Assembly: GCA_024400935.1 (NCBI GenBank)
Contig: JAKSLZ010000012.1
Coordinates: 1 to 48,943 of the forward strand
Reading direction: 5' to 3'
From: Muribaculaceae bacterium
GTDB taxonomy: Bacteria; Bacteroidota; Bacteroidia; Bacteroidales; Muribaculaceae
Length of the DNA: 48,943 bases
The position numbers were made by a program, and so were the translations under genes. Of the stretch, positions 8,984 to 48,658 are shown piece by piece (the first letter of the stretch is position 1; every line of letters starts with the position of its first letter). Under the pieces are notes generated by a model. That model saw only the letters and a program-made list of their open reading frames with translations. It was not told the origin of the DNA and ran no database searches.

Positions 8984-9573
8984 AACTCAAGGAATTTGCG
9001 CAATATCAATTCGCCCACGTCACCGCTCTTTTCGGGGTGGAACTGTGTGGCATAGAAGTTGTCGCGATGCAGCACAGCACTGAAGGGGACAATGTAGTGT
9101 GTCACCGCCTCGGTGTGGCAACACGGCTCAGCATAGTAGCTGTGCACATAGTAGACATGGCGGCCGTTAACGCCGTCGTCAACAAGCCGGCAATCGCTCA
9201 CAGCCTCAACCGTGTTCCATCCCATGTGCGGCACTTTGCACTGCGGGCACGACGAGTTGTCAAATCGCTTGACAACGGTGTCAAAGATGCCCATGCCGTC
9301 CACGTCGCCTTCCTCGCTGTGGCGGCACAAGAGCTGCATGCCTATGCATATGCCCAGCACAGGCTGCTTGAGCCCGGCAATGACCTTGTCCAGACCCTTG
9401 TCACGCAAGTAACCCATCGCTGCAGCGGCCTCTCCCACTCCGGGAAATATCACCTTATCAGCGGCACGCAGCGTGTCAGGATCATCAGTGACAACGGCAT
9501 CAACGCCCAGGCGCTGCAATGCACAAGTGACCGAGAACACATTGCCCGCGTTATATTTTACAATTGCTATCAT
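8980..9573 (-). CDS. hisH: Imidazole glycerol phosphate synthase glutaminase subunit HisH
   Basis: This 197-residue class I glutamine amidotransferase supplies ammonia to HisF. The nucleophile Cys is in GICIGMQLL and the His-Glu pair is in FHPEKSGD near the C-terminus; [13 protein letters not shown] forms the oxyanion-hole region. It is the first of the his genes here. hisG, hisD, hisC and hisB are not in the window, so the pathway is split between loci. A small exported-peptide gene lies 21 bp upstream on the same strand. Confidence 0.97.
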
Positions 9574-9828: not shown

Positions 9829-10854
9829 TTATTTTTGTGATTGTTGTGGCAAGTGCTGGGCATTGGGTGACTGAGTCACGTGGGGCTGAGCACTTGATTT
9901 ATTAACGCCAGCCTTGGGCTTGAAATGTCCCTGGGGCAAAGCTTTAGACGAATCAGCCTTAGGCACCGTAGCCTCAACTGCAGGCCGTGCTGCAGGTTGT
10001 GCTGGCACGGGTGCGGGTGCGGCAGCAGGTTTGTTGCGCTCAATGACCTTAGCCATGGGGGCTGCCATGTAAGTGTGGGTGTCAAGATGAGTGCGCAGCA
10101 GAGCCAAGCTGTCGACATAGGCGATGTCGCCTTGGGCTATATTATAATATACATAGCCATATATTCTCTTGACCTCTCGTGTAGAGTCGCTCTGCAGCAA
10201 CATTGAGTTCCAGCCATCGCTGCAAGAGAAGCGGTGGATATAGGCCGTAGCTCCGTCGTTATAGTCAATTGCAAAGAACACCCTGATGTTGCTCCTCACA
10301 GGCTTAACCTTGAGTTGCAGCTCATATCGGTCGCCACGGGCATATTCCCCATCAGGATCAAAGTCAAATGTGGCAAATCCGTTGCGCATGGCAGTGGTGA
10401 ACATCCAGCGACGCGGTCCCTGCCATATGTCGGCAGTGTCGCCAGTGGCGGCATAAGAATGACGTTGAGTTTGCTGCATATCCCGGCCTGCCATGGGCGA
10501 CGGAGCCGATGACGACTCCTTGTTAGTCTTGTCGCGCATCGAAGTGAGGCGCTCGATGACATTGTCATATACCTTTATATACACCTCCATGTTGCGCGCA
10601 TACCACACCAGCGACGTGTCATACATCTCGGGGGTGACTCCATGTTTCAAAAATATAGACTGCTTGAGAGCCAGTCGTGAAGAGTCGTTGGAGTATTCAT
10701 CGTTGTGTGAGTCGATATAGGCATCAGCGAGTTCCAGGTCAACAAGCAGTTTTTCCATCTTGCTCTCAGGAATCACGCCATCAGGAGCCTGGTCGCAAGC
10801 AACAACCAGACACACCATAACCGATGCACAAAATATCGCCAGTAACTTTCTCAT
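9829..10854 (-). CDS. DUF4296 domain lipoprotein
   Basis: The 341-residue product starts with a lipoprotein signal (lipobox VVAC, Cys20). Residues about 25-110 match the DUF4296 pattern: PESKMEKLLVDLELADAY, then KQSIFLKHGVTPEMYDTSL and a helix YARNMEVYIKVYD. The middle (about 140-260) looks like a beta-rich domain. The tail from about 265 is Pro/Ala/Gln-rich, low complexity and probably disordered. DUF4296 lipoproteins are common in Bacteroidota and have no established function. The start overlaps the lspA stop by one base, so the product is encoded directly after the peptidase that matures lipoproteins like itself. Confidence 0.9.
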   Translation of the reverse strand: MRKLLAIFCASVMVCLVVACDQAPDGVIPESKMEKLLVDLELADAYIDSHNDEYSNDSSRLALKQSIFLKHGVTPEMYDTSLVWYARNMEVYIKVYDNVIERLTSMRDKTNKESSSAPSPMAGRDMQQTQRHSYAATGDTADIWQGPRRWMFTTAMRNGFATFDFDPDGEYARGDRYELQLKVKPVRSNIRVFFAIDYNDGATAYIHRFSCSDGWNSMLLQSDSTREVKRIYGYVYYNIAQGDIAYVDSLALLRTHLDTHTYMAAPMAKVIERNKPAAAPAPVPAQPAARPAVEATVPKADSSKALPQGHFKPKAGVNKSSAQPHVTQSPNAQHLPQQSQK

Positions 10855-22812: not shown

Positions 22813-23829
22813 ATGAATCGCGACGAAGCCATAGCAAGAGGCATAGAGGTGAAAGAAACACAGCACTCTATGAAACGGAGGAGTCCTTGGCACGACTATC
22901 ACCGTAAAGGTGTCTATATGCTCACTCTTGTGGTAAACAGACGCATGCCGCTGCTTGGCAAGTTGAAGGGCGATGTAGACTCCCCCAGGGTTAAGTGCTC
23001 CGAATTAGGTAATGCTATTCTCAATGAGGAGATTCCCAAGATCAATAAGTACTACCCTCAGGTGACCGTGTGGAAAACATGCATCATGCCCGACCACATC
23101 CACTTGATTGTGAGTGTAAAAGAAGACATGCCACCCGGCAAGCACCTGGGGATGGTGGTTGCCGGGTTTAAAGGGGGCTGTTCAAAGGCGGCAATGCACC
23201 TTAGCGTTACCGTTCCTTGTGCGTTCGCACAAGGTGATAACCAGAGCGGACGCTCTGGGAACGGTGGCAATGTAGTTCCCCTCTTCGAGAAAGGTTACAA
23301 TGACAAGATACTCTTGCACGAGGGGCAGCTTAACAACTGGAAAAGATACCTTGACGATAACCCTCGGCGATTGCTCCTTAAGCGCTTGAACCCGCAGTTT
23401 TTCACCGTGTTACACAACATGGAGATTGCCGGGCACAAGTGCCAGGTGGTGGGCAACCGGTTCCTGCTTGACATTCCTGACAAGGTTGCTGTCATCGTGC
23501 ATCGTCGATACAGCATAGAGGAGAATGCTCGCTTGCGTGAAGAGTGGCTGGCATGCGGCGAGCGAGGTGGTGTGCTGGTGAGTGCAGCCATTGCACCCAA
23601 GGAAAAAGATGTGCTGCGCGAAGCGATGAACCGAGGATACCGCATCATCCTGTTGCGAGAAAACGGCTTCCCCGAGCTATACAAGCCATCGGGCGAAAGC
23701 TTTGATGCCTGCTCTCAAGGGTTGCTGCTTCAAATAAGCCCATGGGCACATCACATGGAGAAGAAAGCAATAACCCGCACCCAGTGCCTTGAACTTAATG
23801 CACTGGCCGAGAAGATAGCTTGCCCTTAA
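22813..23829 (+). CDS. RAYT-like Y1/HUH transposase fused to a DprA/SLOG-like domain, copy 1
   Basis: The 338-residue protein has an N-terminal Y1_Tnp domain. The HUH motif is D94-HIH in CIMPDHIHLIV, and the probable catalytic Tyr179 lies in RYLDDNPRR, the Y..NP form seen in REP-associated tyrosine transposases. A variable linker at about 133-158 separates these motifs and is encoded by clustered palindromes. The C-terminal part (about 212-336) has the features of a DprA-like SLOG fold: GNRFLLDIP, GGVLVSAAIAPKEKDVLREA, GYRIILLRENGF, a G-LLLQISPW strand and ITRTQCLELNALAEKIA. A paralogue with identical length lies at 33764-34780. The gene has no flanking inverted repeats and sits 32 bp after an amidohydrolase, like a single-copy resident. 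It may act on hairpin DNA; no target is proven. Confidence 0.85.
   Translation: MNRDEAIARGIEVKETQHSMKRRSPWHDYHRKGVYMLTLVVNRRMPLLGKLKGDVDSPRVKCSELGNAILNEEIPKINKYYPQVTVWKTCIMPDHIHLIVSVKEDMPPGKHLGMVVAGFKGGCSKAAMHLSVTVPCAFAQGDNQSGRSGNGGNVVPLFEKGYNDKILLHEGQLNNWKRYLDDNPRRLLLKRLNPQFFTVLHNMEIAGHKCQVVGNRFLLDIPDKVAVIVHRRYSIEENARLREEWLACGERGGVLVSAAIAPKEKDVLREAMNRGYRIILLRENGFPELYKPSGESFDACSQGLLLQISPWAHHMEKKAITRTQCLELNALAEKIACP
23209..23265. repeat. Palindrome cluster inside RAYT-like copy 1
   Basis: CCTTGTGC (23215-23222) pairs with GCACAAGG (23227-23234) around a GTTC loop. CCAGAGCG (23241-23248) pairs with CGCTCTGG (23251-23258) around two bases. ACCGTTCC (23209-23216) pairs with GGAACGGT (23258-23265), enclosing both hairpins as a three-way-junction-like fold. 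The first hairpin encodes P-C-A-F-A-Q-G in frame. Confidence 0.85.
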
Positions 23830-33763: not shown

Positions 33764-34780
33764 TCAAACTGTTGCAATAGATTCAGCCATTGAATTGAGA
33801 ATCAGACACTCTTGACGTGTGATTTTCTTTTTTACACTGCTATATTCCCACGGACTTAACTGAAGCAGTTGTCCTCTGTGGCAGGCATCAAAACTCTCAC
33901 CTGAAGGTTTATACATAGGAGGGAAGCCATGGTCTCTAAGTAGGATTATTCTATATCCTAATTCCATGGCTTCTCTTATTATCTTTTTTTCCATTGGCGC
34001 AATAGCGGTTCCCACCAGCACACCACCAGCTTCACCCACTGCAAGCCATTGTCTTCGCAGGCGTGCACAGTCATCCAGTGTGTAATGGTGGTGAATGATT
34101 ACTGCCACTTTTTGCGGGATACTCAAAAGAAACATATTGCCAATAGCTTGACATGCGTGCCCCGCTATGTCAATACTGTGGAGCACAGTAAAATATTGCG
34201 GGTTATTGCGCTTGATGAGCAGCCGGCGTGGGTTGTCATCAAGATAGTGTTTCCAATTATCAAGTTGACCATATCGCAACAGTATCTTGTCATTGTACCC
34301 AGGAGTAAACAAAGGCTCTTCTCCCGCGGTAGAAGCCGCGGGCACCTTGCTGTTTTGCAAGGAACCATGCAGCTGGGTGCCCTGCGCTTTTACGCAGGGG
34401 TTCATACGCCACCATGCACGAGAACAACCACTCTTGAACCCCCTTATTACCAAGCCCAGATGCTTGCCTTGTGGCAAATCGTCCTCAACACAAAGTATCA
34501 TGTGTATGTGATCAGGCATAATACACACCTTCCACACTTTCACCATGGGATAGAACTCTTCTATCTTAGACACTTCTTCATTAAGAATAATCTCTCCCAG
34601 TTGCGATAATACAACACGTGCATTAGATTCATCTCCAGAGAGTGTACCCAATATAGGCTGTCGGTCTTTTATGGTGATAGTCACCATATAATGTCCCTTT
34701 AAATTATAGTCGTGGCATGAGCACCTGCGTTGCATAGATGCTACTGTCTCTCTCCGTATATGAGATTTATCTTCGCGCAT
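33764..34780 (-). CDS. RAYT-like Y1/HUH transposase fused to a DprA/SLOG-like domain, copy 2
   Basis: This 338-residue paralogue of the protein at 22813-23829 keeps the same layout. The HUH motif (H91-I-H93 in CIMPDHIHMIL) is followed by a variable linker at about 125-157, Tyr179 in HYLDDNPRR, and a SLOG-like C-terminal domain with GNMFLLSIP, GGVLVGTAIAPMEKKIIREA, GYRIILLRDHGF, YKPSGESFDAC and ITRQECLILNSMAESIA. Identity with copy 1 is high around the HUH motif and in the C-terminal domain but the linker differs almost completely. The linker is again encoded by a chain of palindromes. It starts 13 bp after the ligA stop on the same strand and could be cotranscribed with it. No terminal repeats mark it as a recently mobile element. 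Confidence 0.85.
   Translation of the reverse strand: MREDKSHIRRETVASMQRRCSCHDYNLKGHYMVTITIKDRQPILGTLSGDESNARVVLSQLGEIILNEEVSKIEEFYPMVKVWKVCIMPDHIHMILCVEDDLPQGKHLGLVIRGFKSGCSRAWWRMNPCVKAQGTQLHGSLQNSKVPAASTAGEEPLFTPGYNDKILLRYGQLDNWKHYLDDNPRRLLIKRNNPQYFTVLHSIDIAGHACQAIGNMFLLSIPQKVAVIIHHHYTLDDCARLRRQWLAVGEAGGVLVGTAIAPMEKKIIREAMELGYRIILLRDHGFPPMYKPSGESFDACHRGQLLQLSPWEYSSVKKKITRQECLILNSMAESIATV
34323..34399. repeat. Palindrome chain inside RAYT-like copy 2
   Basis: CCCGCGG/CCGCGGG (34323-34342), CCTTGC/GCAAGG (34345-34362) and CCCTGCG/CGCAGGG (34380-34399) are perfect hairpins. GGGCACC (34340-34346) also pairs with GGTGCCC (34376-34382) around the middle one. On the coding strand the hairpin at 34380-34399 encodes P-C-V-K-A-Q-G, matching the hairpin-encoded P-C-A-F-A-Q-G of copy 1. 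Confidence 0.85.
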
Positions 34781-45808: not shown

Positions 45809-47596
45809 TTATTTCTTCTCGGTGGCCATGATTTCGTCATAGTAGGCACGGCCGTAGACTTTGCGCTTGGTAGGCTTGTAGTTGGGGCTGATGATGTCGT
45901 GTTCGGGATTGTAGTAAGGAGACTTCACCTGTCCCAGCGTGAGGAGCAGGTGTCCCACGATATCGGTCATAAACGGACGGTCGAGCGAGGCCTTGATGCG
46001 CTCCACAATCTCAGGGTGCGACTGCTTGTAGGCATCAGAGCACCACACCACAAACGGCGACTCGTTCTGGTATCGCAGCTGCTGAGGCTTGGGGGTGCGT
46101 GACACCAGGCGTCCGCGATAGTCACGATAGTCGTATATCTCCTCACCGTGGTCGCTCATGTAGACCATCACCGCATTCTTGTTGCGGTAGTGGTCAAAGA
46201 GTTCCTTCATCACTGCATCGTTGTAGTGTGTGGCGTTGTCATACTGTGCGATAACCTTCTTCTTGCTCTTGTCAAGATATTTCTCAGTGCGCTTGATGTC
46301 GGCCTCGGTAAACACACCGCAATCCTTGGGATAACGCTGGTCATAGGCAATGTGCTGGCCCATGAAGTGCAGCACCACCAGGTTGTGCTTGGCTGGAGTT
46401 TTTTCTTTGAGAAAGTTGTCAACCAGACCGCCGTCATATCCATAGCGCTTCTTGTTGCAAGCCGTGTAAGAAAGCTGCATCATGTCTTTGTTGTAAAGGT
46501 AGGCATTCACCGTGATGGTATAGAGTCGCTTGGTCATGAACTCTCGCTGCATGTCCCACATCCACACGTCATAGCCGCTGCGCTTGAACACGGTGACAAA
46601 ACTGGGGAAGTCAAACCATCGCTCTCCAGCCCCTATACTGTTGAGGCTGAACACATTCTTCTCCATAACCGATGTGTAGTTCTCATAGGTCACGGCATCG
46701 TTGAAAACATAGAGGTTGCCGCTCTCCACCTCATGCTCCATGGCAGGCGTGGTGGGCAGTTCATAGCCATAGATGGACGCGTGGTGCTTGTTGTAGCTCT
46801 CGCCCAGCACATATATCACGGTGAGCGAGTCATTCTCGGTCACCGTGGCCTCGGTGTTATAGACATCGCGGGTGGCCTTGATGGCATAGTCGATATCGTT
46901 GGCACTGTCGCGCAGCGAGTTGAGGCTGTGCATGGTTTGAGTGAGCGGGTCCATGGCGTTGTGCGGGAAATAGCGGCGCCACTTGTACAGTTCCTCGCTG
47001 TTAGAGCACGAGAACAGGAACACATAGCTCCCCAGCGCCCACAGCACAGCCACTGTAGCTATTGAACCCACAACAGCATCTCGGACACCCGCCCCGGGCA
47101 CCCTGGCCAGCGCGCGCGCGATGGCCTTGCGCTTCCACTCGGCCAGCACAATCACTGCGGCTACAGCAAGGTCTATGGCATAGCCCCACAGGCTGTCGGC
47201 ATTGAGCATATAAGTGTGTATGAACTCGTTGCTTTCCTTGGGATTGGTCTCGGCAAGGATCGTGAGCGGCTGCTGCGATATGTTTTGGTTGAAATTAAAC
47301 TCCAGGAAAATGGTGGCAACCATGAGGAACCAGAAGAAGAAGTACATCAAGCCCTTGACCCACTTGCTGCGGCACTTGTACACAAGCGCTGTGGCGGCAT
47401 AGACCACGCCACATTCCACAAACAGGCCCTGTACAAAGGTGGCTATCTGACGGCCCCAGTCCTCGCTAGAGGTGAATATCCAGCTGATGGGCTGGTGTAT
47501 CAACATCAAGTTGACGAGGATGAAAAATACTATCTCGGCCTTCACAGGCTTAGACATCGACCTCATGAATTTTGTTATTTTGCCACAAGCATTCAT
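45809..47596 (-). CDS. Membrane phosphoethanolamine-transferase-like enzyme (sulfatase/alkaline phosphatase fold)
   Basis: The 595-residue protein has about five N-terminal hydrophobic helices (to about residue 190) and a large periplasmic catalytic domain. YVLGESYNKHHASIYGY is the nucleophile and metal region. Later blocks are LHFMGQHIAYDQRYP and YMSDHGEEIYDYRDYRG, whose Asp-His are metal ligands of the fold. The family (EptA/OpgE/CptA-like) transfers phosphoethanolamine to lipid A, core sugar or glycans. Which acceptor is used is unknown, and LtaS-like phosphoglycerol transfer is an alternative. I start at ATG 47596 because a full promoter lies at 47620-47651; a longer frame from 47659 would begin upstream of that promoter. 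Confidence 0.88.
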   Translation of the reverse strand: MNACGKITKFMRSMSKPVKAEIVFFILVNLMLIHQPISWIFTSSEDWGRQIATFVQGLFVECGVVYAATALVYKCRSKWVKGLMYFFFWFLMVATIFLEFNFNQNISQQPLTILAETNPKESNEFIHTYMLNADSLWGYAIDLAVAAVIVLAEWKRKAIARALARVPGAGVRDAVVGSIATVAVLWALGSYVFLFSCSNSEELYKWRRYFPHNAMDPLTQTMHSLNSLRDSANDIDYAIKATRDVYNTEATVTENDSLTVIYVLGESYNKHHASIYGYELPTTPAMEHEVESGNLYVFNDAVTYENYTSVMEKNVFSLNSIGAGERWFDFPSFVTVFKRSGYDVWMWDMQREFMTKRLYTITVNAYLYNKDMMQLSYTACNKKRYGYDGGLVDNFLKEKTPAKHNLVVLHFMGQHIAYDQRYPKDCGVFTEADIKRTEKYLDKSKKKVIAQYDNATHYNDAVMKELFDHYRNKNAVMVYMSDHGEEIYDYRDYRGRLVSRTPKPQQLRYQNESPFVVWCSDAYKQSHPEIVERIKASLDRPFMTDIVGHLLLTLGQVKSPYYNPEHDIISPNYKPTKRKVYGRAYYDEIMATEKK

Positions 47597-47619
47597 ATTT
47601 ATATTTAAATTTAACTCGG

Positions 47620-47651
47620 CAAAATTACTTATTTCCCGCACAACGACCAAA
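47620..47651 (-). promoter_or_regulatory. Promoter of the membrane transferase gene
   Basis: Minus-strand TTTG (47648-47651), 20 bp and TAATTTTG (47620-47627) match the consensus. It fixes the start codon at 47594-47596. Confidence 0.75.
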
Positions 47652-47704
47652 TTTAGCACCGTTTTTTGTCACTCAACGGCACAAGCTTTTGTGCCAACGG
47701 GGCG

Positions 47705-48658
47705 TCAGCCCATGAGGCAGCGCTTGTCGATGAGGTCGTTGGCTATAGCATAGATGGTGAGTCCGGCAAGGGAGTGAATTTGCAGCTTGCGGGCAATGTT
47801 GCGGCGGTGGGTAATGACGGTGTTGACCGAGATAAACAGGTGTGCGGCAATCTCTTTGTTGCTCATCCCCTGCACCAGGCACACAATGATTTCCTTCTCA
47901 CGCTCTGAGATGGCCTCAGTGCCTTCGCTGCTATTGATCATGCTCGAGATGCGTGCCGAGACGTCGTCGCTCTTCACCTTCTGCTCCAGCAGTCGGATGG
48001 CGGGCACAAAAAGCACATCCTCCACGTTGCTGTGGTTGCTCAGCCACTCCTCATTGCTGTAGATGTCATAGATGGCAGCCGTGAGCTGGTTGTTGGTCAA
48101 GCCGTCCTGCGGCAGATACTTGATGATGATGCTCTTGAGCTCGTGGAACTTGCCTGTGATGTCGTCGTGGTGCTTAGAGTAAATCTCAACATTATAGTTA
48201 GGCCTCTGCTCGCCCTGCAGCAAGGCGTTGACATAGGGGAACAAGGTCTTCTCTTCATACTTCATGTGCAGCTGGATGTCGTGGGCATACTCGTCATAGA
48301 GCCTCAGGATGAGCATAGCCATGCTGTCGCCATGAGAGAGTGCCTCCTCCAGTTTCTTGCGTATAGAGGGCAGCTGGTAGTCGAGGAAGAAACGGTGCGA
48401 AGCCTGCAGGTAGCCCAGCAGCGTCTTCACCGAGATGCGCTCGTCGGTCTCCTTGGGGGCATAGCCGTTGATCAGGAAATTCACAACAACCAGGAATGTG
48501 TAGCAGTCAACGCCCTGCTCACTGCACACCTCGCTCACAGTCTTGTCGCCAAAACCCAAACGGATGCCAAAGGAGCTGAGTCCCTGTAGCATACTGTAGT
48601 TGTCGCTGATGAGGTCTATCATCTTGTCATCAGCCTCATATAGTTTCATCCTTTTCAT
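47705..48658 (-). CDS. Transcription regulator: RIC/YtfE-like di-iron (hemerythrin) domain fused to a LuxR-type helix-turn-helix
   Basis: The 317-residue protein starts with a ScdA_N/DUF542-like segment (about 10-65: MIDLISDNYSMLQGLSSFGI then GFGDKTVSEVC). A hemerythrin-like four-helix domain follows (about 80-230). It keeps candidate di-iron ligands H88, H131 with E135 (LHMKYEEKTLFP), H163/H164, and H209 with E213 (NHSNVEDVLFVPA), in the order found in RIC (YtfE/ScdA) proteins. Residues about 248-312 are a LuxR-type HTH (ISEREKEIIVCLVQGMSNKE, then VNTVITHRRNIARKL). RIC proteins respond to nitric oxide and damaged iron centres, so this is probably a one-component NO-, oxygen- or iron-responsive regulator. 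It lies divergent to an exported-protein gene at 48892, a candidate target. Confidence 0.88.
   Translation of the reverse strand: MKRMKLYEADDKMIDLISDNYSMLQGLSSFGIRLGFGDKTVSEVCSEQGVDCYTFLVVVNFLINGYAPKETDERISVKTLLGYLQASHRFFLDYQLPSIRKKLEEALSHGDSMAMLILRLYDEYAHDIQLHMKYEEKTLFPYVNALLQGEQRPNYNVEIYSKHHDDITGKFHELKSIIIKYLPQDGLTNNQLTAAIYDIYSNEEWLSNHSNVEDVLFVPAIRLLEQKVKSDDVSARISSMINSSEGTEAISEREKEIIVCLVQGMSNKEIAAHLFISVNTVITHRRNIARKLQIHSLAGLTIYAIANDLIDKRCLMG

Follow-up and report, generated by a model that had tools for sequence, protein, structure and literature searches.

We analyze here a stretch of 48,943 nucleotides from a Muribaculaceae bacterium (GenBank assembly GCA_024400935.1, contig JAKSLZ010000012.1; the whole stretch is called the window), in which two transposase-like genes of one gut bacterium carry, inside their coding sequence, small DNA palindromes that resemble target sites of the enzyme itself. 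Both encode REP-associated tyrosine transposases (RAYTs or TnpAREP, REP standing for repetitive extragenic palindrome). The closest described system is TnpAREP subclass 2.4, in which tnpAREP genes contain in-frame REPs, usually located between the HuH and Tyr motifs, besides the REPs that flank them (Quentin et al. 2018, PMC6006769). Since such in-frame REPs have already been published, the basic finding is not new. Within the portions of PMC6006769, PMC2817692, PMC3733652 and PMC8266576 covered here, to which all our statements on these papers refer, REPs inside tnpAREP genes appear only in PMC6006769. The two genes of the window are as follows.

22813–23829, plus strand: RAYT copy 1, 338 amino acids, with a Y1 HuH nuclease domain (HuH at residues 94–97, Tyr at 179) and a DprA-like C-terminal domain (residues 197–338)
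33764–34780, minus strand: RAYT copy 2, 338 amino acids, 60% identical to copy 1

The window family resembles subclass 2.4, Bacteroidetes members included, in that REP-type hairpins lie in frame between the HuH and Tyr motifs and in that the inserts vary in length, consist of short DNA repeats and keep the reading frame (PMC6006769). The motifs differ, however, copies 1 and 2 having DHIH, LFE (or LFT) and YLDDNP where subclass 2.4 has NH[IFV]H, WQ and YIxNNP; the insert lies between aC and b4, whereas it lies between b3 and aC in subclass 2.4; and the hairpins bear a tag of approximately MACRGTGGC where subclass 2.4 has a GT[AG]G foot (PMC6006769). Unlike subclass 2.4, the window family also has about 140 extra C-terminal residues of DprA-like fold, and many of its genes with a filled loop (defined below) have no matching flanking hairpin. 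Near the aC–b4 site lies a region that takes part in REP recognition in subclasses 2.2 and 2.6 (PMC6006769). What appears to be new is thus a branch with its own motifs, site, tag and DprA-like domain, together with the evidence at the DNA level.

Other described elements share part of this anatomy. REPINs (REP doublets forming hairpins) and bacterial interspersed mosaic elements likewise consist of two tagged, inverted hairpins with a spacer between them, but the present elements lie inside a RAYT reading frame, and that of copy 1 is single in its genome as opposed to hundreds of copies. RAYTs with flanking REPs (Nunvar et al. 2010, PMC2817692) also combine a Y1 nuclease gene with cis hairpins that vary between homologues yet remain palindromic; in the window family, by contrast, the hairpins are within the gene, and none matching them was found up to 400 bp from copies 1 and 2. 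Various other genes contain intragenic REPs and rickettsial palindromic elements (Di Nocera et al. 2013, PMC3733652), which are similarly read in frame and thought to be tolerated in loops or linkers; in the window family it is the transposase gene that hosts them, at one site across many homologues. Group 3 TnpAREP have short, generally perfectly palindromic REPs (PMC8266576).

We consider it probable that the palindrome clusters of the window are REPIN-like elements in a disordered RAYT loop, that their hairpins are the cognate substrate of the protein and that pairing is kept by co-evolution. This view rests on hairpins seen in the DNA, their tag and inverted orientation, compensatory differences, homologues that are filled or empty at one site, and the identical copies that one subclade has beside its gene and between other genes.

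Palindrome clusters inside two RAYT genes

The family of copies 1 and 2 has the Y1 fold of a REP-binding transposase. The HuH motif and the catalytic Tyr, in a Y..NP helix, are present: D94, H95, Y179, N183 and P184 are invariant among 40 sequences, and H97 is kept in at least 90% of them. All 40 match the NCBIfam model REP_Tyr_transpos at E 0.01 or better, copies 1 and 2 scoring 31 bits against a curated cut-off of 80. The insert, at about residues 130–158, falls between a helix at 112–129 and a strand at 163–166 (aC and b4, the naming of elements being our own; the HuH strand is 95–102). This central loop is predicted to be disordered (pLDDT below 50 at residues 140–150) and is the least conserved segment in a seven-sequence alignment, as had been noted when the palindromes were first described. 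The genus search gave up to 13 RAYT matches per genome (G015 and G051, fragments possibly included), as opposed to a mostly single-copy gene in PMC8266576. A ninth, distant Y1-like match in the genome of the window (contig 77, L084:4116–5041) is surrounded by GTAG-tagged hairpins, GGACGACAC/GTGTCGTCC.

The palindromes lie at the following positions.

23206–23268, plus strand: in-frame REPIN-like element of copy 1, two tagged hairpins inverted, tags outward
23206–23214, minus strand: tag of hairpin 1, AACGGTAAC on the minus strand and GTTACCGTT on the plus strand
23215–23234, minus strand: hairpin 1, CCTTGTGC-gaac-GCACAAGG in tag orientation (gttc loop on the plus strand), perfect stem of 8 bp
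23241–23258, plus strand: hairpin 2, CCAGAGC-ggac-GCTCTGG, perfect stem of 7 bp
23260–23268, plus strand: tag of hairpin 2, AACGGTGGC
34323–34399, minus strand: in-frame palindrome cluster of copy 2, three hairpins
34380–34399, minus strand: CCCTGCG-taaaag-CGCAGGG
34345–34362, minus strand: middle hairpin, CCTTGC-aaaaca-GCAAGG, stem of 6 bp
34323–34342, minus strand: CCCGCGG-cttcta-CCGCGGG

All copy 1 palindromes named in the original prediction are present, as are the peptides PCAFAQG (copy 1) and PCVKAQG (copy 2), exactly as given there, and the three copy 2 hairpins occupy precisely the span assigned to them. The stem said to enclose the copy 1 hairpins also exists, but its nature is that of two inverted copies of one tag, GTTACCGTT and AACGGTGGC; the element, read as tag, hairpin, spacer, hairpin and tag, therefore spans 23206–23268, and the proposed range of 23209–23265 was rightly placed though slightly short. 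Arms of hairpin 2 change from CCAGAGC/GCTCTGG in copy 1 to CCAGGGC/GCCCTGG in an orthologue of 79% identity. In copy 2 the outer hairpins look inverted, one with a purine and one with a pyrimidine loop, and CACC is found on the inner side of each; because its match to the tag is weak, copy 2 is absent from the 22 genes oriented by tag below. Both regions fold stably with DNA parameters (z of −4.45 for copy 1, with 1 of 200 shuffles equally good, and of −2.98 for copy 2, with none of 200), and two or more loop hairpins of 7 bp are rare in synonymous-codon shuffles (P 0.001 for copy 1 and 0.009 for copy 2).

Filled and empty loops among homologues

From 117 homologues we removed L157, L167 and L168 (loop not covered), L089 (the same gene as L010) and L165 (divergent, with a short loop), and then nine with identical loops, leaving 103 non-redundant genes from the window's own genome, its genus and named genomes (many of them Prevotellaceae). 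The partial genes L014, L140, L154, L156 and L162 were retained. All homologue counts concern related, not independent, genes. The loop measures 19 amino acids or fewer in 50 genes (empty) and is longer in 53 (filled). A hairpin of 7 bp or more occurs in 46 of the 53 long loops as opposed to 2 of the 50 short loops; when the long-loop genes are shuffled synonymously, a mean of 6.7 genes and a maximum of 15 have one. Hairpins outside the loops of these same genes are also above chance (34, against a null of 16.8 and a maximum of 30), at a density of 0.68 per kb versus 9.2 per kb in the loops. The existence of homologues without palindromes at this position had been named as evidence that would refute the original prediction; such homologues do exist (55 of 103 have no loop hairpin of 7 bp), but they mostly have short loops resembling empty sites. 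Filled and empty states require 13 changes on a tree built without the loop, at least six of them forced by well supported branches, and hairpins at the same site are spelled differently across many related genes.

This pattern recurred in a held-out set of 40 genes of the window's genus, reduced to 38 by dropping two duplicates, where a hairpin was found in 16 of 20 long loops versus 2 of 18 short ones. Ten of the 20 filled held-out genes belong to the TGTTGCGTT subclade, which was already represented in the first set; outside that subclade 7 of 10 long loops have a hairpin.

A scan for hairpins of the form 8-4-8, to which the 9-3-9 TGTTGCGTT type is invisible, was positive in 37 of the 53 filled genes. 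When these hairpins are aligned by orientation, information beyond the stem is mainly one-sided and reads approximately MACRGTGGC. A tag score of 7 or more out of 9, exceeding the other side by at least 2, is reached by 44 of 64 hairpins, while random positions in the same genes reach a score of 7 in 2.6%; the consensus was derived from the very loops on which it is scored here, and the flank and own-genome scans apply it elsewhere. GT[AG]G occurs within 21 of the 44 strong tags, but four bases away, on the 3' side of the tag-orientation strand. The GTTC loop letters stressed in the original prediction are not conserved; what is kept is a purine-rich loop in tag orientation (38 of 44 hairpins), which for copy 1 is GAAC. 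Among 22 genes with two oriented hairpins, near-copies L093 and L154 included, the first and last are inverted in 21, the (−,+) order of copy 1 and its orthologue being the rarer one. It is this combination of a one-sided tag and an inverted pair that makes the insert REPIN-like, read in frame.

Some loops are repetitive in other ways. Tandem arrays occupy 21 of 53, and several of their units consist of a 3' arm plus tag; in L005, the RAYT on contig 107, an in-frame array of 4.2 copies of a 24-bp half-REP unit stands beside one complete hairpin. Two RAYT genes each have one stem in two places, the first in the central loop and the second close to the C-terminus (codons 134 and 373 of L030, codons 152 and 341 of L015), and in L030 the flanking bases match too.

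That pairing is kept at the DNA level, as the original prediction had proposed from compensatory change between the two copies, is borne out in many homologues. Synonymous positions on both arms are complementary in 37 of 42 windows defined by a peptide motif that was picked after the loops had been seen (null 3.4, maximum 10). A looser motif, P.....G, gives the same picture in loops, and outside the loops of filled genes its count for both pairs, 16 of 101, is likewise above the null of 8.3 (maximum 15). Fifteen pairs of sister genes were formed, nine of which had comparable hairpins, 16 in all; in these, 98 base pairs are the same, 20 are compensated and 10 are unpaired in one or both genes. 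The hairpins of the most distant gene pair, L091/L138, are possibly not homologous, and leaving that pair out gives 93, 10 and 9. Moreover, the innermost base pair is common to both hairpins of a gene in 21 of 23 cases (null 7.1; L154, as a near-copy of L093, excluded). The coding sequence here is a clean case of shaping by DNA structure at synonymous sites.

Hairpins beside and away from the genes

Other members of the family do have tagged hairpins in their flanks. In empty-loop genes of the first set these often lie just past the stop codon, in several as an inverted pair, and a flanking tagged hairpin is found in 40 of 50 empty versus 10 of 53 filled genes (reversed control: 0 empty, 5 filled). 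Requiring at least 250 bp on both sides, the figures are 36 of 45 and 9 of 48 (Fisher 2.4e-9); the scan missed the downstream pair of the filled gene L093. Internal and flanking tagged hairpins likewise tend to exclude each other in this set (Fisher 4.6e-4), with 24 of 93 genes having neither and 7 both. Across six independent contrasts on supported branches the two changed in opposite direction in 4.8 on average, with a median p of 0.06. However, the exclusion was not replicated in the 38 held-out genes (5 of 18 empty versus 6 of 20 filled), and we therefore set it aside: the idea that every gene retains a single pair in cis, either flanking or internal, is at most a trend of the first set. 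Internal and flanking hairpins of one gene matched in 8 of 28 genes, as opposed to 1.9 on average in permutations. Our more specific proposal is that a RAYT branch fused to a DprA-like domain keeps its cognate REPIN in its own frame, a single gene thereby holding the enzyme together with its co-evolving single-stranded DNA substrate, that the internal pair can replace the flanking one and that half-REP arrays are by-products of the enzyme acting on its own gene; it is tentative, and we consider it less likely than not.

In one subclade the hairpin TGTTGCGTT-gNc-AACGCAACA is found within the gene and, in addition, directly before or after it. It is present in 30 of 101 genomes of the genus, a reversed control pattern giving no match, and at least 16 genomes have it inside a RAYT. 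Of 21 hand-picked TGTTGCGTT sites away from RAYT genes, in five genomes of which G031 is one, 17 are intergenic and the other four are no more than about 50 bases from the start of a roughly predicted open reading frame (ORF).

In the window's own genome (G000) the hairpin CCTTGAGC-gwca-GCTCAAGG, with a matching tag, occurs five times, four times between genes and once in a doubtful ORF of 130 codons; a diverged copy, CCAGGAGC-gata-GCTCCTGG, with similar outer bases, sits in the loop of the contig 107 RAYT. Within two mismatches the copy 1 hairpin has nine sites in G000 versus three for the reversed pattern, five of the nine being the CCTTGAGC hairpin. In 354 kb of own sequence 14 tagged hairpins were found, and the reversed control gave none. 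RAYT loops contain three of the 14, two more are next to RAYT genes, five belong to the CCTTGAGC family and the remaining four to none of these groups. These stretches were partly chosen around hits of the copy 1 hairpin search and RAYT contigs, so that the count gives no genome-wide density. The Prevotella-type hairpin, searched with two mismatches, gave 19 sites versus 8 in the control in P. communis, 12 versus 13 in G103, and 5 versus 6 in G105, a comparison genome with an empty loop; exact sites were confined to RAYT loops. Searched on both strands of ten genomes, the tag pattern gave 32 matches versus 20 in the control. Among 20 matches whose sequence was read, no more than 7 formed 7 or all 8 of the stem pairs, and a RAYT loop was the site of two of these 7, which makes this pattern weak evidence for dispersal. 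On the genome-wide enrichment that the original prediction had asked about, the picture is mixed: exact copy 1 and Prevotella-type hairpins occur only in RAYT loops, but tagged hairpins outnumber the control by 14 to 0 in the 354 kb and the TGTTGCGTT hairpin is dispersed. High-copy dispersed REPs as the source of the copy 1 element were looked for in its genome and not found, and a candidate inside an ORF judged by eye to be an esterase (L183) was taken for chance.

Competing explanations and further palindromes

According to the model that we favor, the palindrome cluster would usually comprise two inverted REP-type hairpins with one-sided tags, placed in frame within a disordered RAYT loop, the Y1 domain of the protein having a fold that binds such hairpins as single-stranded DNA. 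The hairpins would be the cognate single-stranded DNA substrate of the protein encoded around them; RAYT-mediated transfer or local gene conversion may have brought them into the loop, with local amplification there, and the loop would tolerate them because it is unstructured and they keep the frame. The palindromes would then be kept because hairpin and protein specificity co-evolve. Both readings offered by the original prediction can be placed within this model. In-frame REP-like palindromes are well supported by the tag, the inverted pairs, the subclade copies beside and away from the gene, the tagged intergenic relatives in the window's own genome and the empty homologues, whereas a recognition or regulatory structure of the gene's own survives only as a likely cognate recognition site, to which the inner base pair common in 21 of 23 cases points.

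Several observations weigh against this model. Seven of the 8 genes with matching internal and flanking hairpins belong to one subclade, 7 of the 53 long loops have no hairpin of 7 bp, and half of the 20 compensated pairs (10) come from a single distant gene pair. The exact copy 1 hairpin is single in G000, with no further copy, and the CCYTGCG hairpins of four Prevotella-type genomes occur nowhere outside their RAYT loops; since neither is dispersed, a recent high-copy spread of REPs is not supported. G031, a genome 89% complete, has six TGTTGCGTT hairpins but no RAYT of the family at E 1e-10, and the linkage of hairpin and RAYT is therefore not absolute. Finally, with tandem arrays in 21 of 53 loops, selection is not fully separable from repeated insertion, conversion and amplification.

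It is conceivable, though in our judgment unlikely, that an insertion-tolerant loop passively collects REPs of its own or another RAYT, which are as functionless there as intragenic REPs or rickettsial palindromic elements. Loop disorder, the 13 filled/empty changes on the tree and the hairpins elsewhere in some paralogues (codon 87 of L007, and near the C-terminus of L015 and L030) would all be explained in this way. However, pairing and the common inner base pair persist across much divergence, and the TGTTGCGTT sites off RAYTs (17 intergenic, 4 near ORF starts) are to be set against at least 16 genomes with one inside a RAYT. Stable folding of both copies could also conceivably reflect an mRNA structure regulating translation, decay or elongation of the RAYT message, but we give this very little credence: within one gene, one hairpin has its tag and purine loop on the coding strand and the other has them on the template strand, an arrangement superfluous for an mRNA element, the copy 1 hairpins lie about 400 nt into the gene, and 55 of 103 homologues have no hairpins. 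That repeated peptides such as PCxxAQG are selected for, and that the palindromes only follow from how these are encoded, is scarcely credible even though similar heptapeptides recur; some hairpins are in other frames, and arm complementarity at wobble positions far exceeds that of synonymous shuffles, which largely refutes this explanation and led us to rule out selection at the peptide level. In favor of chance palindromes in a GC-rich, low-complexity loop, some loops are low-complexity tandem repeats, yet the probability of chance is negligible in view of the synonymous-shuffle tests, which also ruled out codon bias, and the one-sided tag.

Should the internal hairpins prove to be cognate substrates, the specificity of the protein and its DNA target could be read from one gene in many homologues. 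Such natural enzyme-substrate pairs would allow RAYT hairpin recognition to be learned and the spread of REPs to be tested.

Palindromes of other types are also present. At window positions 47678–47704 the hairpin GGCACAA-gctt-TTGTGCC, followed by AACGGGGCG, lies in the gap between minus-strand ORFs at 45809–47659 and 47705–48658. Elsewhere in the genome, intergenic clusters of short, varied palindromes with CTACGAAACG between them (GTAG on the other strand) lie at L071:1190–1240, L075 around 9400–9498 and L078 around 10330–10381, and these perhaps represent a second REP-like family of this genome.
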